The notes under the pieces were generated by a model. It saw only the letters and a list, made by a program, of their open reading frames with translations, was not told the origin of the DNA and did no database searches. Positions 7,165-62,900 of a stretch of DNA of 64,000 bases are shown piece by piece (position 1 is the stretch's first letter; each line of letters opens with the position of its first letter). The position numbers and the translations under genes were made by a program. The stretch comes from Globisporangium splendens (taxonomy: Eukaryota > Oomycota > Peronosporomycetes > Pythiales > Pythiaceae): contig VFIW01000082.1 of assembly GCA_006386115.1 (NCBI GenBank), forward strand, positions 1-64,000. The letters are read 5' to 3'.

Positions 7165-8883
7165 TCACTTTATTTGCACCACAGCAGCAGCCACGAGACA
7201 CGCTCCGATGACCGGTAACCCGAATTGGAACGAGGAGCTCGAACTGGTAGCGGCGTACGACTCGGCAACGGCTCCCAGCGTCACTGCGGCCACTCCACTG
7301 GTAGTGACGCTGGTGTTGTCCAAGCACTTGGTCTTTGCGACCTGCGAGTACCACTTGGCCGCGGTTCGAGGAATACGAGCCAAGTCGGTGGACTTTGGCG
7401 TGTATCCCTCCTTTGAGCCCGTCTGCGATGTGAAGTTGACATAGTAGAGACCAAATCGATGGCTGAAGGACCCCCACTCGTAGTTGTCCATAAATGACCA
7501 CGCAGTGTACCCAATGACAGGAATCTGGAATTCGTAGATCGCCTTGTGCACTTGCTCGACGTGGGTCTGGAAGTACGAGAGCTGCCCAGCATCCTCGATA
7601 GTCTCGTCGCCACAATGGCCATTCTCTGTGAGTAAAATCTCGGCTTTCGGGTCTTTGGCGTGCATCCACTTGATCGTGTCCAAGTATCCGACAGGGTACG
7701 GAGTGAAAAACGTGCAATAGCTGATACCTGATTCAGGGTTAAATGCTGGCAAGAGAGAACCATCTGGGAGGCGGTTGTCGTCGACTCCGAGATCTTTAGC
7801 CCATTGTGAGTTACCTTCGCCGCAACGTACAGTCGACTGCTCGGTGCTGCAGTCGGTGCCAGCTCTGGACGAGTAGTAGTTGAGCATGAAGAGATCGTAC
7901 GAGCCTTTCAGAAGCGCAGCTTCGTCGGTCGTGAACTCAGGCAGCCTGTTACCAGCGCGCTCACGCATCGTGACTGGGTAGTGACCCGTCACAATAGGAA
8001 GCAGGAACCATCCGAGGAAAAAATCAGACTTGCGATCGGCTGCCGCCACATCGAGAGCATCATTTGGGTTAAGTGGGTACGTGTGGTCGGCGCAAAGTAC
8101 AATACTGATACGCGCCGTCTTACGGATGATGCCCTGCTTCTTCAATGCTCGGAAGTGCTGCGCCGCAGCGGCGTGCGAGAGCAGCACGTGATGCCCGACA
8201 ACATACTCGTAGCCGGCGTATCCAGGAGCGTGCAAACCAGCGCCGTATCCCATCAGGACGAACGAGTATGGTTCATTGAATGTCGACCACATGTCGACCT
8301 TGGAGCCGAACTCGGTGAACATCAGCTCGGCGTACTGCACGAAATGGTCGATGATCTGACGGTTGATCCAGCCCTGCGGACTCAACTCCGTGTGCAGCTC
8401 TGACGGTAGATCCCAATGGTACAGCGTCAGGATCGGCACGATCTCCTGGCGCAAGAGCTCATCGATGAGCGCGTGGTAGAAGGCGATGCCGGGCTTATTC
8501 TTCTTCATTCGCTGCGTCTTGGAGTCCCAGTTCATGACGCGCGACCACGAGATGGAGAAGCGGAACGAGTCGAGGTTGGTGTCTTTCATGAGCTGGATGT
8601 CGTCACGGTATCGGTGCAGGAAATCGTCGGCGACGTTGGCGCATGCGAGTCCCGGTTGCGCGCGGCAGAAGTCGTCCCAGATGGACGGCGTGCGACCGGT
8701 TTCATTCCAAGCGCCTTCGACCTGGTATGAGGCCGTGGCCGATCCGAAGAGGAAGTCCTTGGGGAAGCATCGATCAGCAGTACTAGTACTGGCGGTGGAC
8801 GAGAGGGAACGGACGTCAGACGTAGCTGCGGTTGCAGCGAACCCAGCAAAGAGTACCCCGATGACAGCACGGAAGCCCACCAT
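7165..8883 (-). CDS. GH1 family beta-glucosidase, copy A, tail-truncated
   Basis: Glycoside hydrolase family 1, 572 aa; expected to hydrolyse beta-glucosides with retention. The ATG at 8883 was chosen because it starts a signal peptide (MVGFRAVIGVLFAGFAATAA); in-frame sequence upstream is 5' UTR shared with copy B. The GH1 N-terminal signature FPKDFLFGSATASYQVEGAW, the acid/base motif TFNEP and the nucleophile motif LLTENG are all present, so the enzyme looks catalytically intact. The C-terminal hydrophobic segment is cut short: after ACLVAAAVV it ends QIK-stop, where copy B continues with a complete membrane anchor and a basic cytosolic tail. Copy A may therefore be secreted or poorly anchored. 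It is the inverted near-duplicate of the gene at 10501-12294. No introns. Confidence 0.93.
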   Translation of the reverse strand: MVGFRAVIGVLFAGFAATAATSDVRSLSSTASTSTADRCFPKDFLFGSATASYQVEGAWNETGRTPSIWDDFCRAQPGLACANVADDFLHRYRDDIQLMKDTNLDSFRFSISWSRVMNWDSKTQRMKKNKPGIAFYHALIDELLRQEIVPILTLYHWDLPSELHTELSPQGWINRQIIDHFVQYAELMFTEFGSKVDMWSTFNEPYSFVLMGYGAGLHAPGYAGYEYVVGHHVLLSHAAAAQHFRALKKQGIIRKTARISIVLCADHTYPLNPNDALDVAAADRKSDFFLGWFLLPIVTGHYPVTMRERAGNRLPEFTTDEAALLKGSYDLFMLNYYSSRAGTDCSTEQSTVRCGEGNSQWAKDLGVDDNRLPDGSLLPAFNPESGISYCTFFTPYPVGYLDTIKWMHAKDPKAEILLTENGHCGDETIEDAGQLSYFQTHVEQVHKAIYEFQIPVIGYTAWSFMDNYEWGSFSHRFGLYYVNFTSQTGSKEGYTPKSTDLARIPRTAAKWYSQVAKTKCLDNTSVTTSGVAAVTLGAVAESYAATSSSSSFQFGLPVIGACLVAAAVVQIK

Positions 8884-8937
8884 GTTCAAGTGTCTGGTAT
8901 GGGTGGACGTGAGTGGTATCTGGCAGATTGGGGAATG
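7178..8937 (-). repeat. GH1 inverted repeat, arm A
   Basis: Inverse copy of 10447-12209. It covers the GH1 coding region and about 55 bp of 5' flank. The distal break falls in the codons for the transmembrane helix, where arm A switches to unrelated sequence giving an early stop. Confidence 0.85.
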
Positions 8938-10446
8938 ACAAGCGCCACAGTCTAGCACAGGTGACCGAGCATGAACAGCACGAGCTCCATCCAGCAGCTC
9001 AAAGCAAATGTCGTGCCGTCTCGAGCCGCTCCATGCCAATCAATCCGTCCATCTTGACCTGCGTCTCCAACAATACCAATCTTCTCAACCACGTCAAGCA
9101 CCAGCATCCATCGTGTGAATCTGTGACCCAATACGCCAACCGCGATCGCAACGCGCGACAGCAACGATTGGTTGCGAACGCACATCGGACATCTACCGAT
9201 GGTGTGAGTGGATCGTGATGGAGTACTTGCCGTTTAGCTTCTGCAAGCGGCGATTGACACGCGTAAACCCGCGTTGTCGTCTATCACTCAGGATACCTGC
9301 TTTCCTACTTTGAGAAAATTCAGCAGGTTACAGAGGCTCTCGTCGCAGAAATCTTGCCCACCACGTTTGGTCTTGCCATTGACTGAAGGATAAATAGTGC
9401 GCGGCATTATATTGCGGTGTTTGCAGTGTTTGTGGTGTTTGATGATCCAAATACGGGTATCACTGCCGGTTCTATCGGGTTACTGAGTATTTCGATGAAT
9501 TGGACTGCAATACGCAACACTTTCTCTTACTCTCATTCTGTCTGCTGGAAGACAAAAACGACCCGAGTGCCCAGGGTCACAAAGACGCTGTAACGATCTA
9601 CTCTTACGCTATCAACTGCGCGTTGTCCGTTTGACTAGGTCGGCAAATGGAAAGCCGCTTTCTCCCCCACGCTGAGGTCGGCAACTACCCTGCGCAGGAG
9701 AGCGCACTCGTCACACCTCAGAGCCGCTCTCGGCAGCAGAGCGTACCGTGGTCGCTCGACTTTGATTAACCGATCGACCAAGCGAGGACGACGACTCGAG
9801 CACTCCAATTGACTCCTTTGTCTCTTCTGCCTTTAAGAGGTGCAGGACCACAAAGCACTCGCACTCCTTGGACGTTCCATTCTAAGGCAATGACCACCTA
9901 GTCAACCACATATGGGCAGTCGATATCCTTGACCCTGATCAGCTGCTGGGTTGGTTGCAAACTTGATCACTCGGTCTGATCAAAGCCAGGCTTTGCTGCA
10001 TAATGCGTTTGTCTTCAACGAGATTTCCTTGATTGGTGGGCACAATAAGCGCCTATCAAGATGCTATTTCAATAGAGGAGCGGAGCAGAATGGCGGAGGG
10101 AGGTTGAAGTTTGGCTCGGTGCTGTGATGCATCATTCCTACTTCAAACACCTTCAGGACGCAGGATTATCAGGGAAGTGGATGCTGCGACCTGATTATTG
10201 ATGCTGATTGGCACTGCGGTTAGGGAAAAGTGCGTGTCAAAGTGACCATGTTGTTCGGAGTGATGTGATATCAGCTCAAAACCAATCAGTCCATAAAACA
10301 GGCGAGCGCAAACCAAGACTGCTTCTCCTGTTGCTCGAGCGGGGAATGAAACGACTCATTGGTGAATGGTACAGGAAGAGAATGAAGCATGGGGATGTGG
10401 AATCTTCGTGGACCTCTCGACCAGAGAGAACCAACTGCTTACGGAT
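8938..10446. other. spacer between the two inverted GH1 genes (shared divergent promoter region)
   Basis: About 1.5 kb of unique sequence between the arms of the GH1 inverted repeat; both genes are transcribed away from it. I see no convincing reading frame. The arms begin about 55 bp upstream of each start codon, so core promoter and 5' UTR sequence next to each gene is duplicated while the distal upstream sequence is not. Confidence 0.6.
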
Positions 10447-12209
10447 CATTCTCCAATCTGCCAGATACCACTCACGTCCACCCATACCAGACACTTGAAC
10501 ATGGTGGGCTTCCGTGCTGTCATCGGGGTACTCTTTGCTGGGTTCGCTGCAACCGCAGCTACGTCTGACGTCCGTTCCCTCTCGTCCACCGCCAGTACTA
10601 GTACTGCTGATCGATGCTTCCCCAAGGACTTCCTCTTCGGATCGGCCACGGCCTCATACCAGGTCGAAGGCGCTTGGAATGAAACCGGTCGCACGCCGTC
10701 CATCTGGGACGACTTCTGCCGCGCGCAACCGGGACTCGCATGCGCCAACGTCGCCGACGATTTCCTGCACCGATACCGTGACGACATCCAGCTCATGAAA
10801 GACACCAACCTCGACTCGTTCCGCTTCTCCATCTCGTGGTCGCGCGTCATGAACTGGGACTCCAAGACGCAGCGAATGAAGAAGAACAAACCCGGCATCG
10901 CCTTCTACCACGCGCTCATCGATGAGCTCTTGCGCCAGGAGATCGTGCCGATCCTGACGCTGTACCATTGGGATCTACCATCGGAGCTGCACACGGAGTT
11001 GAGTCCGCAGGGCTGGATCAACCGTCAGATCATCGACCATTTCGTGCAGTACGCCGAGCTGATGTTCACCGAGTTCGGCTCCAAGGTCGACATGTGGACG
11101 ACGTTCAACGAACCACATTCGTTTGTGGAGTTCGGATATGGCTCTGGAGTTCATGCGCCTGGATACACTGGCTACGAGTATGTTGTCGGGCATCACGTGC
11201 TGCTCTCGCACGCCGCTGCGGTGCAGCGCTTCCGAGCATTGAAGAAGCAGGGCGACATCGGTAAGACGGCCCGTATCAGCATCGTGCTCAGCGCTGACCA
11301 CACGTACCCATTGGACCCAAGCAATCCTCTTGATGTGGCAGCCGCGGATCGTAAATCGGACTTCATTCTTGGGTGGTTCCTGCTTCCTATTGTGACGGGT
11401 CACTACCCAGTCACGATGCGTGAGCGCGCTGGTAACAGGCTGCCTGAGTTCACGACCGACGAAGCTGCGCTTCTGAAAGGCTCGTACGATCTCTTCATGC
11501 TCAACTACTACTCGTCCAGAGCTGGCACCGACTGCAGCACCGAGCAGTCGACTGTGCGTTGCGGCGAAGGTAACTCACAATGGGCTAAAGATCTCGGAGT
11601 CGACGACAACCGCCTCCCAGATGGTTCTGTCTTGCCGACATTTGGCCCTGACGCAGGGATTAGCTACTGTAAGCTTTTCACTCCGCACCCTGTCGGATAC
11701 TTGGACACGATCAAGTGGATGCACGCCAAAGACCCGAAAGCCGAGATTTTACTCACAGAGAATGGCCATTGTGGCGACGAGACTATCGAGGATGCTGGGC
11801 AGCTCTCGTACTTCCAGACCCACGTCGAGCAAGTGCACAAGGCGATCTACGAATTCCAGATTCCTGTCATTGGGTACACTGCGTGGTCATTTATGGACAA
11901 CTACGAGTGGGGGTCCTTCAGCCATCAATTTGGTCTCTACTATGTCAACTTCACATCGCAGACGGGCTCAAAGGAGGGATACACGCCAAAGTCCACCGAC
12001 TTGGCTCGTATTCCTCGAACCGCGGCCAAGTGGTACTCGCAGGTCGCAAAGACCAAGTGCTTGGACAACACCAGCGTCACTACCAGTGGAGTGGCCGCAG
12101 TGACGCTGGGAGCCGTTGCCGAGTCGTACGCCGCTACCAGTTCGAGCTCCTCGTTCCAATTCGGGTTACCGGTCATCGGAGCGTGTCTCGTGGCTGCTGC
12201 TGTGGTGGT
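10447..12209 (+). repeat. GH1 inverted repeat, arm B
   Basis: Partner of arm A. Identity is near-complete at both ends and in the middle, interrupted by two diverged patches, as expected from gene conversion between older duplicates. Confidence 0.85.
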
Positions 12210-13639: not shown

Positions 13640-14064
13640 TGTAACGGGATTGCCCGTTACACGGCACACACGAGCATTGAGGAAGCGCAGGTGAGAAGAA
13701 GGGCTCAGCGGTAACACTGTGTCCAGAGAGAAGAGAGGGAGCTTTGCGCGCTAACGTGCAAATTGAGAAGTGAATTAGAATATAAAGTGCTAACATGCAA
13801 TCGCTCTGACTGAAACCTGCGATGTCTATCATTGGCAGACAGTCGGGTGTCCAGTCCGACTAACATCCAATGGGACTAAATCTCAACGGCCCGGTCCTGT
13901 TGGCTAATATGCAAGTGGCTGCGCACAGTGTTCATGAGTGACACATATCAATGCATCCCGAACTGTACGTAGTGGGTGGGTTTGGGAGAGGCGGTAAAAC
14001 CCATGTGGGTGAAAATCCACACTCTCCTGACCCGAGAACCCATGTAGTGGGACTCCCCACTACA
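13640..14064 (-). repeat. family 3 LTR, left inverted copy
   Basis: A 425-bp LTR read on the minus strand, starting TGTAGTGGGG at 14064 and ending near TTACA at 13640. It is preceded on its own strand by a purine tract (AGGGGATGA, complement of 14065-14073), like the polypurine tracts of elements 1 and 2. It is therefore the 3' LTR of a minus-strand element whose internal part lies at 14065-14663. It is the inverse of 30372-30796. Confidence 0.7.
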
Positions 14065-14210
14065 TCATCCCCTAAAGCGATTGGTCACGTGAAAACGCGC
14101 GCGACTAACCCCTCTGTGCTCTTCTGTGTTCTTTTGTGTCTTTCCGTGTTCGGAGGAACTGGTCACAGAAGGCAGAGCAGAAGGATCCGGTAACGGGTCC
14201 TTCTGAAGGG

Positions 14211-14663
14211 ATGAATTTCACCCCATCTAGCTGGAGTCACTTGTGGGCACCCAAACCCAGTTGGGTTCGTGCACATCGTGGCACCCAGCGTGCGGGAACT
14301 CGCGCGCTGTACGATGTTAGTACTGTCAAGGATGGTGACTTCGTCCTTCGACAGAGCTTCCATCCCAAGGAGCGTGAGGAATTTTACATCGACCTTTTTC
14401 ATTCGATGCGGTGCTTCGATAGTCGATCGAAGTCGAAGAAACTTCACAGCACTGAGAAACAAGCGCTGTTTCTTTTGCAAGCGTGGAGTGCCTTCATTGT
14501 GCACTCAGCAAAGACGCTGGGAAGTGTATCTCTCGATTGCGAGACAATCGGGAGGAGTTCCTTCGGCACAATGCCGTTGGAAAGCTGTTGGCGATCCATG
14601 AAGAATGCGTGGATCTTGGAGTTCCATGTGGGGTCAAGACCACACCGAGGAGTTGCCGTATCT
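14211..14663 (+). CDS. family 3 antisense ORF, 3' end cut by element 1
   Basis: Open frame starting at ATG 14211, 146 bp inside the family 3 LTR and antisense to that element. The reading frame runs into the LTR of element 1 at 14664. It contains ALYDVS, then FYIDLF, then a hydrophobic block with AWSAFI. These match in order the N-terminal part of the antisense proteins of elements 1 and 2 (LYDIS, FYKELF, SWKTFV). A long Ser/Arg/Lys-rich stretch separates the blocks. No known domain is recognised. Function unknown; homology to the other two is inferred from position and short motifs. Confidence 0.45.
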
Positions 14664-15269
14664 TGTAAGAGGCTATCCGAGACAGCCTCAAACACGGCAC
14701 GCACGCTTGCGCTTGAAGAGGAAGACTTGAGAGGAACTTGGCAAAAATGCAACTGAATTGAAATGAGCTTATGGTTCCTGACACTACATGTAAAACACCA
14801 CTAGGTCTCCTAGAGGTTTTATAACTAAAACCTAAACATGCACAATAAAACCTATTAATATGATATATAAAACCTTGGGTACACTGAGGTTGAACCCAGG
14901 GGATCTTCGAGAAACTTGAACTTGAAGTCCCGTGGAAAATTCCCTGCAAAGTGATTGGCTCGCGCCACACTTTAGGTGGCAGAGACACGTTGGTCTCATC
15001 ACCAGTGCAGTTTCCCAAGTAGGAACCATCACTCACGTGTCTAGAGTACTGTTGTGCGTAACCACGCCGAATCTCAATGATTGCGAGCGACCAACACTCA
15101 ACTCAGACACAGATTGCTCTGACGTCAGACGATGACGTCACCTGTGCATGTGGGATCACTTTTATGTGTTTCACCCAATATCTTCGCACCCACAATGCAC
15201 TTCCACAAGGTGGTGTGTGACACACACAAAGAGCCACCTTGCATGTAATGGCAGCCTGAGCCCATTACA
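14664..15269 (-). repeat. element 1 3' LTR
   Basis: 606 bp, TG..CA ends (TGTAATGGGC start at 15269 on the minus strand, ..CTTACA end at 14664). It differs from the 5' LTR at six substitutions and one indel by hand count. Two TGACGTCA palindromes lie at 15120-15127 and 15133-15140. Because the antisense gene begins 76 bp inside it, this LTR is also the likely source of the antisense promoter. Confidence 0.9.
15120..15140. promoter_or_regulatory. paired CRE palindromes in element 1 LTR
   Basis: Two perfect 8-bp TGACGTCA palindromes, the consensus for CREB/ATF-type bZIP factors, separated by 5 bp (gacga). The 5' LTR has the same pair at 29604-29611 and 29617-29624. Binding is inferred from the consensus only. 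Confidence 0.6.
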
Positions 15270-15345
15270 TCATCCCTCCCTTAAAGTTCCATCACGGACT
15301 TTACTTCTTTCGGAAGAGGCACCCGCTCTCACTTTCCAATTGACC

Positions 15346-16371
15346 ATGAAGCGACCAAGCGACCAAGTGAAGCGCGAAGAACGGCCCGAGCCAAAGCGGC
15401 AGCGGACGACTCCCGGCTTGTACGACATCTCCGCTATTCGCAAGAAGCGTGGAGGACGTCGGTTCTACAAGGAGTTGTTCTTCCTCTGGCGCAAGATGTC
15501 CGGCGGCGACGATCCTGGCCAGTCCAGCACAGCGAAGCTCGAGTCGTGGAAGACGTTTGTCCGACTCGAGAACGAGAATCTTGTCGAGCGTTTGCTAGGG
15601 AACCTAGGAGGCACGCTCGAGAACGACCATAAAGAGCTTGGCTCTAGTCGTTCTAGTGCTCGCGAGAGCACTACAAGCTCTGTTCGTAACTGTGAACCAC
15701 GTCGGGAACATCAGACTGAAGAGTCTCTCGAGGTTCCCACGTGTCCGAGTCCGGCGGATAGCCAAGCCACCGTACTCTGTAGAAGCGTTGACGGTTCAAC
15801 GACTTCTCTCCTCGACGACGAGTCGACTCAACGATCCAACGACGCTCTCCCTGATGATCGATCAGAGGAGGTGGGGCTGAACGCGAAAACGATTGAGCGA
15901 CTCTGGAAGTGGAAGAGTGCTCACCGCGCTCAGATCGAGGCTCTTGAAGTTCGCAATGCGGTACTCGAAGACCGGTGCGAAAGCCTCGAAGACCGGTTGA
16001 AGGAGCAGGAGTCGAAGATCGACTTGCTCTTCGATGGTCTTGCCCAGCGTTCGGCAATGGAGTCACATTTCGAACAGAGGTTCGAGAAGATTCAAGCCGA
16101 GCTTGAACGACTCCAGAAGGCTGAGAAGGCTCGTGAAATGCATCACGAACGTCTACTGCGCTCTGTGGAAGAGGCAGGGACGGCTCTTGAGATACTTCGG
16201 AAGGAGTATCATGGTCGCCTTCTCGCGTTGGAGACAATAAAGGACGAGTCCTTTGATGTGCTTCAGCGCCTTTATGCCGAGAAGAAGCTCCATGACGATG
16301 AGTTACAGACTCTTCGCGAGCTGGTGGAGCGACTTCAGGATCGACTTGATCGTCTGCCAAAGGCTCTGTAG
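15346..16371 (+). CDS. antisense gene of element 1 (basic N-terminus plus coiled coil)
   Basis: 341 codons on the strand opposite to pol, starting at ATG 15346, 76 bp inside the 3' LTR, and overlapping the last ~700 bp of the pol frame. The N-terminus is basic (MKRPSDQVKREERPEPKRQR, NLS-like), followed by LYDIS and FYKELFFLWRKM, a Ser-rich linker, then a long coiled coil from about residue 175 to the end (IEALEVRNAVLEDRCESLED, LERLQKAEKAREMHHERLL). A counterpart of 355 codons exists in element 2 at the same distance from the LTR and in the same codon phase against pol. I do not recognise a family. A nuclear or nucleic-acid-binding regulator of the element is a guess; it is not a clear bZIP. 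Confidence 0.7.
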   Translation: MKRPSDQVKREERPEPKRQRTTPGLYDISAIRKKRGGRRFYKELFFLWRKMSGGDDPGQSSTAKLESWKTFVRLENENLVERLLGNLGGTLENDHKELGSSRSSARESTTSSVRNCEPRREHQTEESLEVPTCPSPADSQATVLCRSVDGSTTSLLDDESTQRSNDALPDDRSEEVGLNAKTIERLWKWKSAHRAQIEALEVRNAVLEDRCESLEDRLKEQESKIDLLFDGLAQRSAMESHFEQRFEKIQAELERLQKAEKAREMHHERLLRSVEEAGTALEILRKEYHGRLLALETIKDESFDVLQRLYAEKKLHDDELQTLRELVERLQDRLDRLPKAL

Positions 16372-19300
16372 GGTTCGCTGACCCACTTGGAAGGTAAGGC
16401 TTTAGTCTACCTACGTAGAACGTAGGGTGTAGTCGCATGCGTTTAGGAATGTCTAGCGTGTAGGCATCACCATTGCATTTAACTACCCTGAACGGTCCAA
16501 TATATCTTGGCAGAAGTTTCGAACTCCCCAAGTTAGACACTGCGTGTTCAGGTAGATTAGCCGTGCTAAGTAATACAAGATCATTGATCTTATACACTTG
16601 CTTGTTCTTCCTTCCGCTCTTGTCTGCTTGTTCCTTTTGCAGATCCTGAGCCTTCGCGATTGCGTCTCGAACAAACCTCACAACGGCTTGTCTCCTCACA
16701 ATAAAGTCATCGACTTGCTGTCCCTCACGACTTGTCATGTCGTCTAGAGGTTTCATCGAGTCAAAATTCGCTTTTAACTCTGTGACAGCATTCAGATCCG
16801 ACTGTGGCTCCTTAGCCATAGTCTCTCCCCCACTTAAGGTAGAAACCTCTCCCACTAGTGACGCTGGCACTCTCGGGCGGAGTCCGTAGTTCACATAGAA
16901 CGGGGTATGACCTGTCGAGACATGCGTGGAGTTGTTCAACGCAAACTCTGCGAGAGGGAGAAACTCACTCCACTCTCCGAAAGACGTCGCATAACTGCGC
17001 AACACGTCTTCAAGGACACGATTCACTCGTTCAGTTTGACCGTCTGTCTCTGGGTGTGCTGCTGTTGACATGGATAGTTTTGTATCCAAAATGCCAAACA
17101 GAGTTCGCCAAAACCTAGACGTAAACCGAGTGTCACGGTCTGATACGATCTCCGAGGGCAGACCATGTAGACGGAACACCACGTCTACAAAGACTTTCGC
17201 AGTCATCTCTGCCGAGATCTTATCCGAGACCGGCGCAAGATGGACCATCTTGCTGAATCGGTCCACAAACACAAGGATGCCATTGCGTCCGTGTTTGTCT
17301 CTTGGAAGTCCGAATATGAAATCCATACTCACAGACTTCCAACTGTCCTGAGGGACAGCCAATGAACGAAGTGGGGCCCGAGTAGAGCCGGATGGCTTAA
17401 CTCTTTGGCACACTTCGCAAGTACGCACATACTTGCGAACCCACTTGTACATGTGAGGCCAGTAGTAATCTCGAGACAAGTTGAGAAACGTTTTCTCACG
17501 TCCGAGATGGCCACTCGAAGGACCGTCATGATACTCGTACAAGAGTCGATGACGCAGACCTTCGTCGTTGGGGACAACGATCCTCGCTGGATCCCCTTCG
17601 TCAACCGTATAGTACAGCAGCTCATTGTGCATGCTGTAACGGTGAACACGCGATCTTGCTCTTGGTGGGAGGTTTTGGAGTGCCTTCTCTGAGGGATTCT
17701 TGAAATACTTGATCAGTTCTTGGCATGCTTCGTCTTGCTTGTATCCCTCAGTGATCTCTTCTTGGACTGTGCTTGTCACTCCCGTAGCAATCGCGTTGAC
17801 GTCTTCACAGAGTCGGCACGCTCCGTTCGTGTCGTCACTCTTGTTCTTCGGATCATAGCCGGACGTCTTGACAGCGCATCGGCAAGAATGTTTGACTTGC
17901 CGGGCTTATAATGTACAACAAAGTTGTACTCAGCGAAGAAGGAAAACCATCTTGCCATTCTTTGCGATAGGTGAGGCGTCTTTACAGCTGTCCGCAGTGA
18001 TGCGTGATCAGTGTAAATAGCGAACTGCTTTTCACCAAGCAAATAGACTCGGAACTTTGCCAATGCATACTTCATGGCCAATAGTTCCTTGTCATGGACC
18101 GGATAGTTCCGTTCTGCGGGTCGGAGTTGTCGTGACTGATACGACACAACTCTTTCTTTGCCCTCATCATCGTGTTGCATCAGTGCACACCCGATGGCAT
18201 AGTCGCTCGCATCGCAGACTACATGGAACGGCTTCTCATGGTCTGCGAGAGCTAGGACAGGAGCTTCTCTTAAGCTCTTCTTTACTTCGGCAAACGCTGC
18301 CTGATGTTCCTCTGACCATTCCCACTCATTATCTTTCTTCAAAAGACTCGTGAGGGGTTGCACTAACGCTGCATAGTTGCGCGTGTATTTGTGCAAATAG
18401 TTAGCCAAACCCAGCCACTGACGTAGCTGTTTGACGTTCTGAGGAATAGGCCAATCGTCGATAGACTTGACCTTCTCAGGATCGACCCGAACGCCATTCT
18501 TGCCAACAAAGCAACCGAGTACAGGGATCTCGGGGGCGAAGAAGATGCATTTCTTCAAGTTAGCGTACAGTTTGTTCTCACGCATAACTTGAAAGACTTG
18601 ACGAAGATGTTCAAGATGAACATCGACATCTTTCTTCCCTTCCGAGGCCTTGCTGTGAACGAATATGTCGTCAAAGTAGCTCGGTGCAAACTCTCTCAAT
18701 GGACGAAGTACATTCGTGACCATTCTGTTGAAAGTTGCTGGTGCGTTCTTCAGACCTTGTGGCATCACCATCCACTCCCACAGCATACCACTAGGGGTGC
18801 TAACTGCTGTAAATGGTGCATCGCTCTCGCGCATTCGAATCTGATAGAACCCGTCTTTCAGATCGATCGCGCTAAAGACAGTGCTGCCAACCATTCCATC
18901 AAGGATCATATCCTTGCGTGGAACTGGGGTCTGAGCAGGTATGGTCGCATCATTCAATTTGTTGAATGCATGAACAATGCGCCAACCGCCTGTGGCCTTC
19001 TTCACACAGAAGGTGGGACTACAGTGCGGAGACTTGCTCTCTCGCACATGGCCAGCCTTCTGTCGCTGCGCGAAGAACTCGTCGATCGCATCGACTTGTT
19101 CCTTCGGTAGCGGCCATTGCCTCGTGATACAGTACTTCGTTCCCGGAAGTACATCTATCTCGTGACGAATGCCTCTGTCCTGCGGCAATTCGTCCGGCAC
19201 TTTGTCCGGAAATATGTCCGCATATTCCTTGACAAGTCCATACACGGGGTTTGTCTTTAGAGCGTCCCACGACTGCTCATCAACCTCTCCTTCCGTGTCC

Positions 19301-21010: not shown

Positions 21011-21660
21011 TGTAATGGGCTATACCTAGCCATTACATGAAGGTGGATCTGTTCCCAGATTTAGTGTGCCACACACCACCTTCAGTGTGCATTGTGGAGA
21101 GACAAACAACAAAGGGATTACGGTACGACAGTCCCCACATGCACATGTGACGTCATCCCATGACGTCACGAGCGCTCTCTGTGCTGATCAGTGCAGAATG
21201 TTGTTCACATGTACTAATCAGTACAGAGTGATGACATCCATGTACTAATCAAGTACTGAGTGATGGTTCCTACTTGGGAAACTGCGTTGGTGATGAGACC
21301 GACGTGTGTCTGCCACCTAAAGTGAGTGGCTGTAGCCAATCACTTTGCAGGGAATTTTCCACGGGACTTCAAGTTCAAGCTTCTCGAAGATCTCGTGGGT
21401 TCAACCTCAGTGTACCCAAGGTTTTATATATCATATTCATAGGTTTTATTGTGTATGTTTAGGTTTTAGTTATAAAACGTGTAGGAGCCCTTGGGGTTCA
21501 TTTACAAGTAGCGACAGGAACCATAAGCATTTTTAATTCAGTTGCAATTTTACCTCAAGCCCTCAAGTCTTCCTTCCTCCCTCCAAGTCGGGAGACGCTT
21601 CCTCTGGCACAAGCGTGTGTGCCGTGTTTAAGGGACTGTTTGGAACAGCGCCCTTTTACA
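21011..21660 (+). repeat. element 2 5' LTR
   Basis: 650 bp, TGTAATGGGC..TTACA. It has paired TGACGTCA sites at 21148-21155 and 21161-21168. Between about 21180 and 21266 there are three imperfect repeats built on ACTAATCAGTAC followed by GAGTGATG. It differs from the 3' LTR at about nine substitutions and two indels by hand count. Confidence 0.9.
21148..21168. promoter_or_regulatory. paired CRE palindromes in element 2 LTR
   Basis: TGACGTCA twice with a 5-bp spacer (tccca), the same spacing as in element 1 although the spacer sequence differs. The 3' LTR has the pair at 28162-28169 and 28175-28182. Confidence 0.6.
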
Positions 21661-21785
21661 CCTGGTAGCACTTCGAGCGGTCCTTCCAGCGACCCAGTGA
21701 AGCGAAAAGGTTTGACGACGCGGCTTTGAGCACGTCGCGCATTCCTGTCCAAGACTGAGACCCTGCGAGCATCCTTGTCGTGGAC

Positions 21786-25800: not shown

Positions 25801-27606
25801 TTCGCAAGTATGTGAGGACTTGCGAGATCTGCCAACGAGTGAAACCTTCTGGTTCCACTCAGGCACCACTTCGTTCATTGGCTGTCCCTCAGGACAGTTG
25901 GAAGTCTGTGAGTATGGATTTCATATTCGGACTTCCAAGTGACAAACACGGACGCAATGGCATCCTTGTGTTTGTGGACCGATTCAGCAAGATGGTCCAT
26001 CTTGCGCCGGTTTCGGACAAGATCTCAGCCGAAATGGCGGCCAAGGTCTTTGTAGACGTCGTATTCCGTCTGCATGGCCTGCCCGTTGAGATCGTGTCTG
26101 ACCGTGACACTCGGTTTACGTCCAAGTTTTGGCGTGCACTGTTCGGACTTCTGGACACCAAGTTGTCCATGTCAACAGCGGCACATCCCTGAAACGGACG
26201 GTCAAACAGAACGAGTGAATCGTGTCCTCGAAGACGTGTTGCGCAGTTATGCGACGTCTTTCAAAGAGTGGAGTGAGTTTCTCCCTCTTGCCGAGTTTGC
26301 GTTGAACAACTCCACGCATGTCTCGACGGGTCACTCTCCATTTTATGTGAACTATGGCATTCATCCCCGAGTGCCTGCTTCCATAATGGGTGAGGTCTCT
26401 ACCTTAAGTGGGGGAGGGACTACGGCTAAAGGCAATAAGCCGCAGTCGTCGTATGACCTGAATGCTGTTGCCGAGTTAAAAGCCAATTTTGACTCGATGA
26501 AAACCCTCAACGACATCACTAGTCGTGAGGAACAGCAAGTCGATGACTTTGTTGTGAGGAGACAAGCCGTTGTGAGGTTTGTTCGAGACGCAATCGCGAA
26601 GGCTCAGGATCTGCAAAAGGAACAAGCAGACAAGAGCGGAAGGAAGAACAAGCAAGTGTATAAGATCAATGATCTTGTATTGCTTAGTGCGGCAAATCTG
26701 CCTGAACATGCAGTGTCCAACTTGGGAAGCTCGAAGCTTCTGCCAAGGTTCATTGGACCGTTCAAGGTGGTTAAATGCAATGGTGATGCCTACACGCTAG
26801 ACATACCTACACGCATGCGTCTACACCCTACATTTTATGTGGGTAGACTAAAGCCTTACCTTCCAAGCGGATCAGCGGATCCTACGAGATCTTCCGCAAA
26901 CGATCAAGCTGATCTTGAAGACTCTCCACTTGATTGCGAAGAGCAAACAGCTCATCGCTTTGGAGATTCTTCTCGGCGTAAAGGCGCTGAAGCACATCGA
27001 AGGACTCCTCCTTCACAGCTTCCAGCACGAGAAGGCGCGAGTTATACTCCTTGCGGAGTACCTCAAGAGCCGTCCCTGCCTCTTCCACAGAGCGCAGCAG
27101 ACGTTCGTGATGCATTTCACGAGCCTTCTCAGCCTTTTGGAGTCGCTCAAGTTCGCCCTGGACTTGCTCGAACCGTTGCTCGAAACGGGACTCCAAAGCC
27201 CGATACTGAGCGGGACCAAAGGTCAGCGAGTCGATCCGCGGCTCCTGCTCCTTCACTTGGTCCTCGAGGCTCTCGCACCGATCCGAAAGGATCGCATCGC
27301 GAACTTCCAGTGTCTCAATCTGAGCGCGATGAGCACTCTTCCACTTCCAGAGTCGCTCAATCGTTTTCGCGTTCAGCCCCACCCCCATTGATAGACTCTC
27401 AGGGAGATCATCGCTGGGTGGTTGAGTCGATTGTTGATCACGAAGATCGACCGACTCATCGTCGAGGAAAGAAGCGGTTGAACCATCAATGCTTCTACAG
27501 AGTTCGGTGGCGTGGATATCCACCGAGCTCGGACACGTGGGAACCACGCCAGACGATGGAGTCTGATGTTCCCGACGTGGTCCGCAGCTACGAGAACCAC
27601 TTGTAG
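22820..27606 (+). pseudogene. pol: element 2 pol: protease-RT-RNase H-integrase-chromodomain, three frameshifts
   Basis: Same domain order as in element 1: LVDTGASNNF protease, MPQGLKNAPATFNR and YFDDIF reverse transcriptase, RNase H, integrase core ETDGQTERVNR, variable linker, chromodomain (WVVES.., FYRVRWRGYPPSSDTWEP). Compared with element 1 there is a one-base deletion near 24527 (just before YFDD), another near 25727 (integrase N-terminus) and a one-base insertion near 26190 (between HP and ETDG). The last 1.4 kb is open and overlaps the antisense gene from 26882 to the stop at 27606. Confidence 0.88.
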
Positions 27607-27949: not shown

Positions 27950-28025
27950 GGCCGATTGGAAAGTGAACTGCTCCGAAAGGTCTGCAAAAGTACGCAAGGT
28001 ACTTGTGACTTTAAGGAGGGGATGA

Positions 28026-28675
28026 TGTAATGGGCTATACCTAGCCATTACATGAAGGTGGATCTGTTCCCAGATTAGTGTGCCACACACCACCTTCAGT
28101 GTGCATTGTGGAGAGACAAATAACAAAGGGATTACAGTACGACAGTCCCCACATGCACATGTGACGTCATCCCATGACGTCACGAGCGCTCTCTGTGCTG
28201 ATCAGTGCAGAATGTTGTTCACATGTACTAATCAGTACAGAGTGATGACATCCATGTACTAATCAAGTACTGAGTGATGGTTCCTACTTGGGAAACTGCG
28301 TTGGTGATGAGACCAACGTGTCTCTGCCACCTAAAGTGAGTGGCTGTAGCCAATCACTTTGCAGGGAATTTTCCACGGGACTTCAAGTTCAAGCTTCTCG
28401 AAGATCTCGTGGGTTCAACCTCAGTTTACCCAAGGTTTTATATATCAGATTCATAGGTTTTATTGTGTATGTTTAGGTTTTAGTTATAAAACGTGTAGGA
28501 GCCCTTGGGGTTCATTTGTAAGTAGCGACAGGAACCATAAGCATTTTTAATTCAGTTGCAATTTTACCACCAAGCCCTCAAGTCTCCCTTCCTCCCTCCA
28601 AGTCGGGAGACGCTTCCTCTGGCACAAGCGTGTGTGCCGTGTTTAAGGGACTGTTTGGAACAGCGCCCTTTTACA
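28026..28675 (+). repeat. element 2 3' LTR
   Basis: 650 bp, preceded by polypurine tract AAGGAGGGGATGA and followed by the tcccg duplication. The antisense gene of element 2 starts 76 bp upstream of it and reads away from it. Confidence 0.9.
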
Positions 28676-29147
28676 TCCCGTAGTTGTCTTGCAGTGATCG
28701 CTGCATCCAACTCAACGAACCATCTCGCTAGAGGTTCGTTCTCTCCGCCATGGTACGGAGATACATCAAGCTTCAGAGGTGCCACTCTCATCGTCGTGGC
28801 AGGAGTTGCGGGCTGTCGATGAGAGTTCATGATCTCGTGATGCATGAAGCTCGTAGCCGCGTTCCTCTGCTCATCCGGTGACGCTGATCTCAGCAAGCTG
28901 ATCACAGCCGCCTCACCGATGACTGCTCGCATACGCTCGAGGGCTGCCCACTCGTGGCTCGACAAATGAGGAAAATGCTCATTCGTCAGCTCCACGGTCT
29001 CTCCAGGCATCGAGCCCATCGGCGTCTCAATCCCTTCCATTGTTTCTCACAATCGGACAGGGGTCTTGGAATGTCCGCGCACGCTACACAAGCGGCCTAT
29101 GCAGACTCTTGACTTGGTCGTTGGAAGGACTACAAAGTGCTACCAGG

Positions 29148-29754
29148 TGTAAGAGGCTATCCGAGACAGCCTCAAACACGGCACGCACGCTTGCGCTTGA
29201 AGAGGAAGACTTGAGAGGAACTTGGCAAAAATGCAACTGAATTGAAATGAGCTTATGGTTCCTGACACTACATGTAAAACACCACTAGGGCTCCTAGAGG
29301 TTTTATAACTAAAACCTAAACATGCACAATAAAACCTATGAATCTGATATATAAAACCTTGGGTACACTGAGGTTGAACCCAGGGGATCTTCGAGAAACT
29401 TGAACTTGAAGTCCCGTGGAAAATTCCCTGCAAAGTGATTGGCTCGCGCCACACTTTAGGTGGCAGAGACACGTCGGTCTCATCACCAGTGCAGTTTCCC
29501 AAGTAGGAACCATCACTCACGTGTCTAGAGTACTGTTGTGCGTAATCACGCCGAATCTCAATGATTGCGAGCGACCAACACTCAACTCAGACACAGATTG
29601 CTCTGACGTCAGACGATGACGTCACCTGTGCATGTGGGGATCACTTTTATGTGTTTCACCCAATATCTTCGCACCCACAATGCACTTCCACAAGGTGGTG
29701 TGTGACACACACAAAGAGCCACCTTGCATGTAATGGCAGCCTTAGCCCATTACA
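29148..29754 (-). repeat. element 1 5' LTR
   Basis: 607 bp, direct repeat of 14664-15269 with six substitutions and one indel. It is followed on the minus strand (29147 downward) by CCTGGTAGCACTTTGTAG, the candidate primer-binding site, matching that of element 2 in its first bases. Confidence 0.9.
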
Positions 29755-30225
29755 GAGGATCGTCGCTGGTGCAGATACGGCAACCCCTCGGTGTGGTCTT
29801 GACCCCACATGGAACTCCAAGATCCATGCATTCTTCATGGATCGCCAACAGCTTTCCAACGGCATTGTGCCGAAGGAACTCCTCCCGATTGTCTCGCAAT
29901 CGAGAGATACACTTCCCAGCGTCTTTGCTGAGTGCACAATGAAGGCACTCCACGCTTGCAAAAGAAACAGCGCTTGCTTCTCAGTGCTGTGAAGTTTCTT
30001 CGACTTCGATCGACCGTCGAAGCACCGCATCGAATGAAAAAGGTCGATGTAAAATTCCTCACGCGCCTTGGGATGGAAGCTCTGTCGAAGGACGAAGTCA
30101 CCATCCTTGACAGTACTAACATCGTACAGCGCGCGAGTTCCCGCACGCTGGGTGCCACGATGTGCACGAACCCAACTGGGTTTGGGTGCCCACAAGTGAC
30201 TCCAGCTAGATGGGGTGAAATTCAT
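29755..30225 (-). CDS. family 3 antisense ORF, right inverted copy, truncated
   Basis: Inverse of the ORF at 14211-14663, starting at ATG 30225, 146 bp inside the right family 3 LTR. It runs about 20 bp further inward than the left copy before meeting the element 1 LTR, and the open frame then continues into that LTR. It carries ALYDVS and FYIDLF. Differences from the left copy are few and mostly do not break the frame. Confidence 0.45.
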
Positions 30226-30371
30226 CCCTTCAGAAGGACCCGTTACCGGATCCTTCTGCTCTGCCTTCTGTGACCAGTTCCTCCGAACACGGAAAGACAC
30301 AAAAGAACACAGAAGAGCACAGAGGGGTTAGTCGCGCGCGTTTTCACGTGACCAATCGCTTTAGGGGATGA

Positions 30372-30796
30372 TGTAGTGGGGAGTCCCACTACATGGGTTC
30401 TCGGGTCAGGAGAGTGTGGATTTTCACCCACATGGGTTTTACCGCCTCTCCCAAACCCACCCACTACGTACAGTTCGGGATGCATTGATATGTGTCACTC
30501 ATGAACACTGTGCGCAGCCACTTGCATATTAGCCAACAGGACCGGGCCGTTGAGATTTAGTCCCATTGGATGTTAGTCGGACTGGACACCCGACTGTCTG
30601 CCAATGATAGACATCGCAGGTTTCTGTCAGAACGATTGCATGTTAGCACTTTATATTCTAATTCACTTCTCAATTTGCACGTTAGCGCGCAAAGCTCCCT
30701 CTCTTCTCTCTGGACACAGTGTTACCGCTGAGCCCTTCTTCTCACCTGCGCTTCCTCAATGCTCGTGTGTGCCGTGTAACGGGCAATTCCGCTACG
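30372..30796 (+). repeat. family 3 LTR, right inverted copy
   Basis: 425 bp on the plus strand, starting TGTAGTGGGG after a purine tract (aggggatga, 30363-30371), so it is a 3' LTR with the element body to its left. Nearly identical to the left copy; the last nine bases (TCCGCTACG) differ most from the left copy's CCCGTTACA. Confidence 0.7.
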
Positions 30797-59830: not shown

Positions 59831-59986
59831 TGCGTTCTAATGTCTGTCAAAAATGCGGGAGAACTTGCAATGAACACACGTGCTTATCATGCAAATCATG
59901 CATTTATTATGCATTTATGTGTACAAACGATATCTAAGACTCGGTTCATGCAGATACAGAAAATATGCAGAGCTACTCAATGTAGC

Positions 59987-62900
59987 TTACGACTGGAAGT
60001 TGGCAACCGCTTGCGAGACAGCGTAGTCTCCCGAGTGACTGATGGACACACTGAGCGAGGTCAAACCGATGCGGTTGAAGACCTGCAGAGGGTATCCAGA
60101 CAGCAGAACGGATGGAGCGCCCGAGGCAGTCATGAAGATCTCAATTTCACGAAGCGGGGCGCCTGCTCCCTTCCAGACGTTTGGTTCATTTGGCGAGGTG
60201 CTGGAGATCGCCTTGATGACAGCTTCCTTTGCGGCCCAGCGTCCAGCAAAACTTGCAGCAGGGTGTGGAGCGCTGTAGCAATAAGCCATCTCTTGGTCAG
60301 TGAAGTTGCGTCGGATGAAATCTTCTCGTCCATGCAAGTTTTCAAAGGTTGCAACTGGCTCGACATCCACGCCAATTCCAATGTTTCTCGCCGTCAAACC
60401 GATATCAGATGCAGTTTGGTTCAACGCCGACTCCAAAGTCGATGGGTCACTTCCAGACTCCTCGTCGACAGCTTTGCTTGTGGATGTAATCACAAACGAC
60501 TTGGTCTTCTTCGCACGCTTTGGAGCTCGTGGGCGTCTGTCTTGGTCGGAACCACCAAATCGCCAAGACTTCGCAACTGGATCGTACTGCGCACGGGAAG
60601 TTGGGTCCAAGTACACGCTGCTCTCTTGCGATGCGGAGTAAGGTGCCGAGTCCTTCACCTGGATGAACGTGTGCTTGCCAGTGACGGTGTTTTGCATGTA
60701 CGTGTTCATGCGGGTCAATCGCTTGGATCGGCGAGACGTGTAGCTCTGGAGATCACTTTGAGCAAGCGTCGACAGCAAGTAGTCAGGGTGAACCAACAAG
60801 ACTTCGCCACCTGCTTGACCAAAGCCGAAACTCTTCATGATGGCAGCCTTGATGCCAACAGTTTGGATGCTACGGTTTGGATACATCAAGTAGTCAAACT
60901 TGCGGAGCGTCTCGCACGTGTTGTCCAAGTTGCGGTTGCCTGGAATCAAACCGGAGTTGAGCACTTGAAGCAGACCGTTGAACATCCACGCGGCAGCAGC
61001 ACCCTTTGGATGACCGGTCAGGTTCTTCTGGCAAATGATTGGCAACGGGTTACCGATCGAACGACCAAGGTGCTGGAGCTGCTTTTGCGTCACCTCACTC
61101 TCATTCTTGTCGTTCGCCTTGGTACCAGTGCCGTGGAAGCTGGCAACGCCGATGTCATCGGCAGTCAAGTTCCAGACGCCAAGCGCTCCACGCAATGGAG
61201 CAATGTCCACACGTCCATGGTAGAAACCCTCTCCCCACATGGCTTGAGCAGATTGCAGCTTGCGCGCCTTCATCTCGTCCAGGAACGCAAGGTGCGAGTC
61301 GCTGTTGTCTTCAGAGACCAAAGCCTTCTCGCGAGAAAACCAGGTCTCAATGTCAGCAACTTCAGCGTCGAACTGACGACGACGGAACTCGACATCCAAC
61401 AACGGAGAAGGCTTAGCTGAGGACTCACGAGCGGTAGTCAAGATACCTTGACCAGGTGCTGGCACCGAGCGTCCGTTCTTGTCGGTCGCCGTGTTCGTGA
61501 GAGCAACAATACCGTAGATTGGGCAGCCCATATCCAAAGCAAGTTGCGCGTCCATCAGCAGTTGCATGCCTGCGCCTTGACTTTCCATGAAGCCACCGCG
61601 AGTGGTGGAGCACGGACGGCACATCTCCTTAGGATCTCTGCCCATACCGGTCTCCTTCACAGAGTCACTCGTCGCCTTCATCTGCGCAAACTCGTACGAG
61701 CCTTCTTCACCAAAGTCATCGTAGCCACCAACGATCACGATACGGGCCTTGCCGCTCTTGATGGTCTCAACACCAATATCAACCGACTCGGCCGCAGTAG
61801 CACAAGCACCAACAGGAGTCTTGATCGGACCAGACGAACTCAACAAAAGCATGTTCACCCACGCTGGTGCAGTGTTGATGAAACACTCTTGGAGAGTGTC
61901 ACTCGCAATGCTCTTACCCTGGAGGCGGCCCTGGTAGATTCTCTTAAAAGAGCGCATGCCACCCATACCACCGCCGGAGGTGTTACCAATTTCCGACACG
62001 TGCACGTACTGGTAAAACTCGTATGGGTCCGTCACACCTGCAGACACAAGCGCATCCATCGTAGACGCCAGTGTGTACAACGTCACCGGGTCCACGGAGT
62101 CAGCGATGTCCTTGGGCAAACCAAGTCGCTCGGCGCTCCAGCCAGTAGGAATCTGGCCAGCAACAAAGCGGTCGAACGACAGAGCACGAGGAATGCTGAG
62201 AACAGAGCCCTTGCGCAGACGAATCATCCAGGCACCAGAGGCGTTCTGGAACACATCCACGTTCTCTTCGCCCAGCTCGTTGCGGAACTGAAGCGCTTCT
62301 TCACGGTCGGCAACCTCGACAGGAGCCATCTTCTTGTCAATTGCGACCTGGTGAAGAATCATTTTCTTGTGAGGGTCGTAGCCTTCGAACAGGTCCGGCT
62401 CAACAATACGAATACCAGAGTGCTTGATGATTTCTTCCTCGTAGCGAGATTTCACTTCGCTGTCAGGAACAATCTCCTTGGTCTTCGCATCCACCCAGTT
62501 ACCATTGTTGTACACAATGTGACCAGTCAACCAAGCCAACTCAATGCAACCTTCAAGCGAGAATTCGCCAAAGGACTCCATCTCCCAACGAGTTCTCGCG
62601 CTACCCCAAGGCCCAACTTCACCGTAACCAGCAACGACGACAACCTTGCGCAAGTCAAGCATGTCTCGGAGCAACGTTTGCTCACGTGTGCTAGCGAGGC
62701 GACCGACAGACGAGAGACCAGGGAATCCGTCGCAGAAGTAGCCAGACAAATCAGCGCGAGGAGTGAACACTGGTTGTGGCTCAGCAGTGGCAGCCGATGG
62801 CAGAGCAAGAAGCTTCTTCTCGTTCTGGATCGACTGGTAGATCGACGCTTGGAGCTTTGCTTCGCTCGTGATGCTGCTTCGAATCGTGTCGACTTGGTTC

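Follow-up and report, generated by a model that had tools for sequence, protein, structure and literature searches.

A putative antisense gene under selection, dual-coding with pol, in chromodomain Ty3/gypsy retrotransposons of the oomycete Globisporangium splendens

Chromodomain-bearing Ty3/gypsy retrotransposons of the oomycete Globisporangium splendens carry a reading frame antisense to pol that, judged from sequence, is a selected protein-coding gene. The gene was analysed in a window of 64,000 nucleotides (contig VFIW01000082.1 of assembly GCA_006386115.1, positions 1 to 64,000 of the forward strand), which contains two Ty3/gypsy elements, element 2 (plus strand) being nested inside element 1 (minus strand). 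Over its C-terminal two thirds the gene appears to be dual-coding with pol, first opposite the chromodomain and then opposite the linker. Comparison of copies supports a division of constraint: selection maintains the antisense protein along the linker and pol along the chromodomain, and each protein has its structured part opposite a free part of the other. The best explanation, probable as a whole, is a dual-coding antisense gene with divided constraint, for which an initiator promoter of its own and a nuclear, oligomeric regulator as product are proposed. Dual-coding genes on opposite strands are difficult to demonstrate, and many divergent copies in one genome permit a direct codon-level test.

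The first-pass annotation, made by a model from the sequence alone, had placed a frame of 341 codons opposite the end of pol in element 1, and this frame is confirmed (15346-16371, plus strand), overlapping pol (15671-17905, minus strand) by 701 bp. Antisense codons 1-108 lie beyond the pol stop, codons 109-341 stand opposite the last 233 pol codons, and the antisense stop faces pol codon 512; pol third positions are opposite antisense second positions. As had been described, element 2 has a homologue of 355 codons (27949-26882, minus strand) at the same offset from its long terminal repeat (LTR) and in the same phase, and the reported identities of the pair held up on measurement, at 127/165 (77%) for the last 165 antisense codons and 63-64% in the pol linker, where about 63% had been given for the sense frame. 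The same annotation erred in starting the gene 76 bp within the 3' LTR: the LTR occupies 14664-15269, and the ATG at 15346 lies 77 bp into the internal region. The reading is open already from 15136, and it is only this open stretch upstream of the ATG that reaches into the LTR.

In this phase the wobble position of each frame is a constraining position of the other, and the phase of substitutions therefore tells which protein has been kept. Counted at pol positions 1/2/3, elements 1 and 2 (E1 and E2) differ by 10/5/27 over pol codons 301-400, 1/0/0 over 401-441 and 2/3/21 over 442-511 (SH3), then by 15/24/9 over 512-600, 19/25/18 over 601-701 and 8/6/11 over 702-744 (chromodomain). The sums are 13/8/48 (301-511) versus 34/49/27 (512-701; p 8e-9), and a change-point fit to pol codons 301-701, free of any preset border, places the phase switch after pol codon 513 (range 508-520). 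Ratios of nonsynonymous to synonymous substitution (dN/dS) were estimated with a two-frame count of our own implementation, modelled on overlapping-gene methods, from six divergent copies (15 pairs; bootstrap over codons). Over the linker (antisense codons 152-341) the ratio is 0.33 (0.24-0.42) for the antisense frame and 0.98 (0.73-1.34) for pol; over the chromodomain (antisense codons 109-151) it is 1.06 (0.43-2.91) for the antisense frame and 0.28 (0.13-0.52) for pol. Single pairs give 0.28-0.33 for the antisense linker (E1-E2, E2-L055, L055-L058 and E2-L058) and, for the pol chromodomain, 0.34 (E1-E2) and 0.28 (both L055-L058 and E2-L058). Among 13 copies, variable linker columns number 67/59/117 at antisense positions 1/2/3 (p 5e-6), and chromodomain and linker differ at antisense positions 2 and 3 (p 0.005). 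Base composition does not account for the linker signal (p 0.041, 0.0009, 2.7e-5 and 0.00036 in four pairs). From these sequence comparisons, the pol linker is kept open yet can vary in sequence, and opposite the chromodomain it is the antisense protein that can vary. Selection on the antisense protein, as the first-pass annotation had proposed, is supported by the two-frame count on divergent G. splendens copies, in which the antisense linker value is not near 1, and by the change of substitution phase where the antisense frame ends; it holds over the pol linker and fails opposite the chromodomain, where pol is the frame kept.

A chance open frame, sheltered by pol codon usage and without selection of its own, is suggested by the window itself, where a host gene encoding ketoacyl-synthase domains (59987-63943, minus strand) is faced by a 526-codon antisense frame (59840-61420, plus strand). 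Openness alone is for this reason weak evidence in the G. splendens genome, and the weight of the case rests on the codon-phase tests. The chance reading is nonetheless barely credible, being contradicted by the linker ratios of the two frames, by the phase switch and by the 108 N-terminal antisense codons beyond the pol stop, which contain 10 of the 17 invariant columns of the A3 alignment, all ten in residues 22-86. It also fits poorly with resampling: when the pol protein was kept and its codons resampled, the antisense frame was still open in only 0.00015 of 20,000 trials. In the reverse resampling, with the antisense protein kept, pol was still open in 0.00035, and the 109 codons from the antisense ATG to the pol stop were open in 1.4% of shuffles. 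The antisense frames are open, as had been noted, despite the division of pol over several frames in both window elements. A further alternative makes the antisense RNA the functional product, for example in silencing through double-stranded RNA, with the protein incidental; such RNA roles are discussed for other elements in passages of PMC7264820. Silencing, however, needs no codon structure, and codon constraint is found over the linker and, more weakly, beyond pol. An RNA product in place of the protein is highly unlikely, and an additional RNA role alongside the protein is possible.

The selected antisense gene is abundant in the genome. DNA-level searches covered the 53.3 Mb G. splendens genome in six frames, and their match lists are lower bounds. 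The antisense protein of element 1 (P0001) gave at least 118 scored matches among 485 candidates (103 without an internal stop, 15 with at least one), and distant-relative queries gave at least 107 scored of 442 candidates and at least 119 of 468, the last with 97 stop-free. The lists of 118 and 119 have 14 places in common, which leaves at least 223 distinct places. That other copies also keep the frame open was borne out in 34 of 41 extracted copies, in which it runs for 341-374 codons. An identical TGA at antisense codon 73 (CGA to TGA) is found in five of the 30 A-type copies (L009, L020, L027, L029 and L030), and other premature stops fall after codon 251 in L028 and after codon 18 in L052. 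The copies with TGA at codon 73 are dispersed in a poorly resolved tree, and the stop may reflect either recurrent change or gene conversion. The elements recombine within the antisense gene, since L051, to which L059 is 97% identical, is a mosaic of an A-type N-terminus and a B-type linker.

Protein database searches returned 79, 83 and 6 matches, including the queries or the window's own frames, the first two numbers coming from the best 8000 candidates. Named NCBI matches are G. splendens gene models, nearly all hypothetical and partial, and the others lie on contigs under 4 kb. The most distant relatives, 41-48% identical to P0001, retain the N-terminal domain, and full-length relatives, at 42-48% identity, retain the coil as well; in the viral and prokaryote contigs searched, no match to the antisense protein was confirmed. 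Parts of PMC7264820 treat the transduction of genes by LTR elements, and a captured host gene could happen to lie antisense in the element. This origin is improbable given that the protein searches (two of them limited to the best 8000 candidates) gave only G. splendens gene models and small contigs, and that Pfam and PDB matches were only weak coiled-coil ones.

Structure prediction (mean predicted local distance difference test score, pLDDT, 74; predicted template modelling score 0.33; 30 sequences) gives the element's own antisense protein a plausible anatomy. The basic residues 1-20 resemble a nuclear localization signal (NLS), a loose bipartite basic pattern of this kind being present in 25 of the 27 members of the A3 alignment with an M[KR]R start (the start is absent in 3 of 30 members). 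Within the small domain that follows, helices are predicted at residues 38-52, 61-76 and 80-85 (pLDDT 77-90 for blocks 21-80, 59 for 81-90), and the domain has no Pfam match. Residues 87-170, including antisense codons 109-151 opposite the chromodomain, are predicted to be disordered, and residues 171-340 to form a single helix of about 170 residues (pLDDT 91-98 over 181-330) that faces the pol linker. The basic N-terminus and long coiled coil of the first-pass annotation are thereby borne out by prediction. The predicted anatomy also matches the divided constraint, with disorder opposite the chromodomain and coiled coil opposite the free linker, and in this way the modelled structure supports the division.

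In the proposed mechanism, an initiator promoter of its own, situated between the end of pol and the 3' LTR, would drive transcription of the gene. The product would be a nuclear protein some 340 residues long, which would oligomerise through its long C-terminal coiled coil. The N-terminal helical domain might, as a guess, contact DNA, chromatin or a partner. By analogy, the accessory gene may have a role comparable to that of antisense genes of some retroviruses; that it regulates the element, via sense transcription from the LTR or nuclear integration steps, is a tentative guess that falls a little short of an even chance. The predicted coiled coil and NLS-like start would suit a scaffold as well as a regulator, and the protein might be a structural partner of element proteins (integrase or capsid binding, nuclear entry, targeting), not a transcription regulator. 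Nothing specific speaks against such a partner, which we consider somewhat unlikely.

A candidate start signal for the antisense gene lies just before its ATG. The oomycete initiator (INR) is YCAYTYY, followed in the combined motif, after 2 nt, by the flanking promoter region (FPR) MWTTTNC, as given in passages of PMC3599244. TCACTTT stands 17 nt before the antisense ATG of element 1, and 39 of 41 copies have a YCAYTYY match at -17 to -11. In the leaders of E1, E2 and L058, TCACTTT is identical in 7/7 columns and other leader columns agree in 7/53, the putative INR being the main conserved block between LTR and antisense ATG among divergent copies. In the six copies examined, 5-6 of the 7 FPR positions match at the exact spacing. 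The candidate signal would place the antisense start in the internal region, not the 3' LTR.

Several observations weigh against the reading preferred here or limit its reach. At the codon level, the pair E2-L055 gives a chromodomain pol dN/dS of 1.15 (0-2.34), that is, no constraint, from six differences, and single pairs give p 0.27-0.61 for the chromodomain. Among the 13 copies, variable columns at antisense positions 1/2/3 number 54/50/74 in the N-terminal part (p 0.062) and 13/19/12 in the chromodomain (p 0.38). The dN/dS intervals are too narrow, to an unknown degree, because the pairs have common ancestry and some copies are mosaic. Premature stops in 7 of the 41 extracted copies mean that not every spreading copy kept the protein; the broken copies suggest that the product can act in trans or that a single round can proceed without it; alternatively, the stops postdate insertion. 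Contact with DNA or chromatin is a guess because the N-terminal domain has no recognised relative. Of shuffled leaders, 27% contain a YCAYTYY match by chance, and a transcript from this signal would have a 5' leader of about 15 nt, below the range of 32-144 nt given for Phytophthora infestans in part of PMC3599244, so that the promoter is suggested by conservation only.

Four chromodomain gypsy stretches taken as controls (L061-L064) likewise have antisense frames in the same phase, of 280, 160 plus 118 (one stop between), 280 and 255 codons within the stretch. The genome matches listed number 140 for the L061-type antisense protein, with a frame length of 531 or 561 codons in many cases, and 76 for the L064 type, with 565 codons in many. 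The antisense stop lies past the start of the YVGxL motif at the SH3 end by 10 codons in L061 and L063, 4 in L064 and 15 in E1 and E2. In the part beyond the pol stop only, L061 and L062 differ by 24/23/52 at antisense positions 1/2/3 (p 0.0003), a coding signature; the L064 type differs from its two fragments in the window by 5/2/9 and 5/2/10, counts too small to judge. Profile comparison detected no relationship between the L061- and L064-type proteins and the present antisense family, except in a stretch facing the chromodomain. In two further chromodomain gypsy families of G. splendens, antisense frames occupy the same place in the same phase, and one of the two families shows a coding signature. 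We tentatively propose, as an idea slightly more likely to fail than to hold, that at least three lineages of chromodomain gypsy elements in this oomycete have the free pol linker ahead of the chromodomain as a cradle for antisense genes. Under the same tentative proposal, frames of 340 to about 565 codons, with no similarity detected outside the mirrored chromodomain, would have one place, one phase and one anatomy: an N-terminal part of their own past the pol stop, a section opposite the chromodomain, a C-terminus, charged and probably helical, opposite the linker, and a stop 4-15 codons after the motif at the SH3 end begins. The explanation would be either a single antisense gene of the same age as these lineages, since diverged beyond recognition, or repeated origin of the overprinted architecture.

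Element 1 is assigned to chromodomain Ty3/gypsy elements by its pol domains, C-terminal chromodomain and LTR pair (Table 1); element 2 likewise has an LTR pair and a pol frame with linker and chromodomain. The frames of element 1 encode gag, protease, reverse transcriptase, RNase H, integrase and chromodomain of Ty3/gypsy type, with Pfam matches in pol to RVT_1, RT_RNaseH, Integrase_H2C2, rve and Chromo. Both flanks of element 1 carry an inverted repeat of 1,023 bp, 99% identical (13641-14663 and 29773-30795), each arm of which contains a piece of an L064-type antisense frame. Elsewhere in the window, glycosyl hydrolase family 1 genes form an inverted pair (7177-8938 and 10446-12207, 96% alike), and a second long antisense frame (61448-63388, plus strand) faces the ketoacyl-synthase host gene. 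Among public gene models, P0064, P0076 and P0085 join pieces of the antisense gene to Copia, gypsy integrase or L061-type antisense sequence and look chimeric.

Table 1. Positions of the antisense genes, their predicted parts and the surrounding retroelement features in the window
Feature	Position	Strand	Basis
Element 1 antisense gene, 341-codon frame starting at ATG	15346..16371	+	open frame
Basic NLS-like N-terminus, residues 1-20, predicted disordered	15346..15405	+	pLDDT 41-43; basic pattern
Small helical domain, residues 22-86, no pol overlap	15409..15603	+	structure prediction, alignment
Coiled coil, residues 171-341, one long helix (predicted)	15856..16368	+	structure prediction, hydrophobic period 3.51
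Putative initiator TCACTTT (INR) of element 1 antisense gene	15329..15335	+	conserved motif
Partial FPR, element 1	15338-15344	+	spacing after INR
Antisense gene of element 2, 355 codons	26882..27949	-	homologous open frame
Putative initiator TCACTTT of element 2 antisense gene	27960..27966	-	conserved motif
Pol frame, element 1 (integrase zinc-binding, core, SH3, linker, chromodomain)	15671..17905	-	Pfam
Chromodomain end of pol, codons 702-744	15671..15802	-	constraint on pol frame; antisense frame unconstrained
Pol linker, about codons 512-701	15803..16371	-	constraint on antisense frame; pol protein unconstrained
C-terminal part of element 2 pol frame (linker, chromodomain)	26056..27606	+	open frame, comparison with element 1
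3' LTR of element 1	14664..15269	-	LTR comparison; TG...CA ends
5' LTR of element 1	29148..29754	-	98.8% identity to 14664..15269
5' LTR of element 2	21011..21668	+	LTR comparison
3' LTR of element 2	28026..28683	+	97.7% identity to 21011..21668
Fragment of L064-type gypsy antisense frame flanking element 1	14504..14662	+	match to L064 type
Inverted copy of L064-type fragment, other flank of element 1	29756..29932	-	match to L064 type

Antisense accessory genes are a known class in LTR retrotransposons. Passages of PMC7264820 and PMC11963269 describe antisense additional open reading frames (aORFs) between pol and the 3' LTR in Grande (gene23), RIRE2, Retand, PvRetro13 and Boty; the Grande protein is nuclear and its gene has its own promoter (PMC7264820, in part), and the Grande and Retand proteins are proposed there to be nuclear or DNA-binding regulators (PMC7264820; PMC11963269). 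Like these plant and fungal aORFs, the oomycete frame is antisense to gag-pol, near the 3' LTR and present in most copies; unlike them, it lies between pol and the 3' LTR only for codons 1-108, and 233 of its 341 codons are dual-coding with pol. Of their other traits, the promoter is represented by a conserved INR motif only, and nuclear location by the NLS-like sequence pattern in 25 of 27 members. In contrast to the Retand TRP28 antisense proteins, the oomycete proteins searched do not match PF04195 (Transposase_28), which was not found in P0001, its N-terminus, P0073, P0082 or P0074, nor among the best 25 Pfam matches of P0065. Chronos, an oomycete Ty3/gypsy element with a C-terminal chromodomain and a second, archaeal-type RNase H, is described in part of PMC5348765, where chromodomains are held to direct integration to heterochromatin; the main text of that paper does not contain the word "antisense". 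The present elements resemble Chronos as oomycete Ty3/gypsy elements with a C-terminal chromodomain, and only the gypsy RNase H was matched in element 1, whose pol is split over frames.

Human T-cell leukemia virus 1 (HTLV-1) has an antisense gene, HBZ, whose product is a basic leucine zipper protein with the basic region directly before the leucine zipper. The oomycete gene is like HBZ in being antisense at the 3' end of a retroelement and in combining a basic part with a predicted coiled coil, and unlike it in that about 150 residues separate the basic start (residues 1-20) from the predicted coiled coil (from 171). The antisense promoter of HTLV is in the 3' LTR, as stated in a passage of PMC7264820. 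The candidate start signal of the oomycete gene, unlike that of HTLV, is outside the LTR. In human immunodeficiency virus 1 (HIV-1), the comparable overlaps are of same-strand genes. For a nucleotide in such an overlap, it can be decided which of the two genes exerts the dominant selective force (PMC9119678, in part). Constraint is likewise divided in the present overlap, which differs in being antisense and in a retrotransposon.

A literature search, with subscription papers mostly outside it, found no oomycete antisense element gene, and dual coding with pol with strand-switching constraint in an oomycete was not found in the literature searched. The arrangement is probably present in several oomycete element lineages. 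Abundant oomycete retroelements would gain an accessory protein, and antisense accessory genes would extend beyond retroviruses and plant and fungal elements. With constraint that switches strand at domain borders, these elements offer a clean system for how overlapping genes divide constraint.
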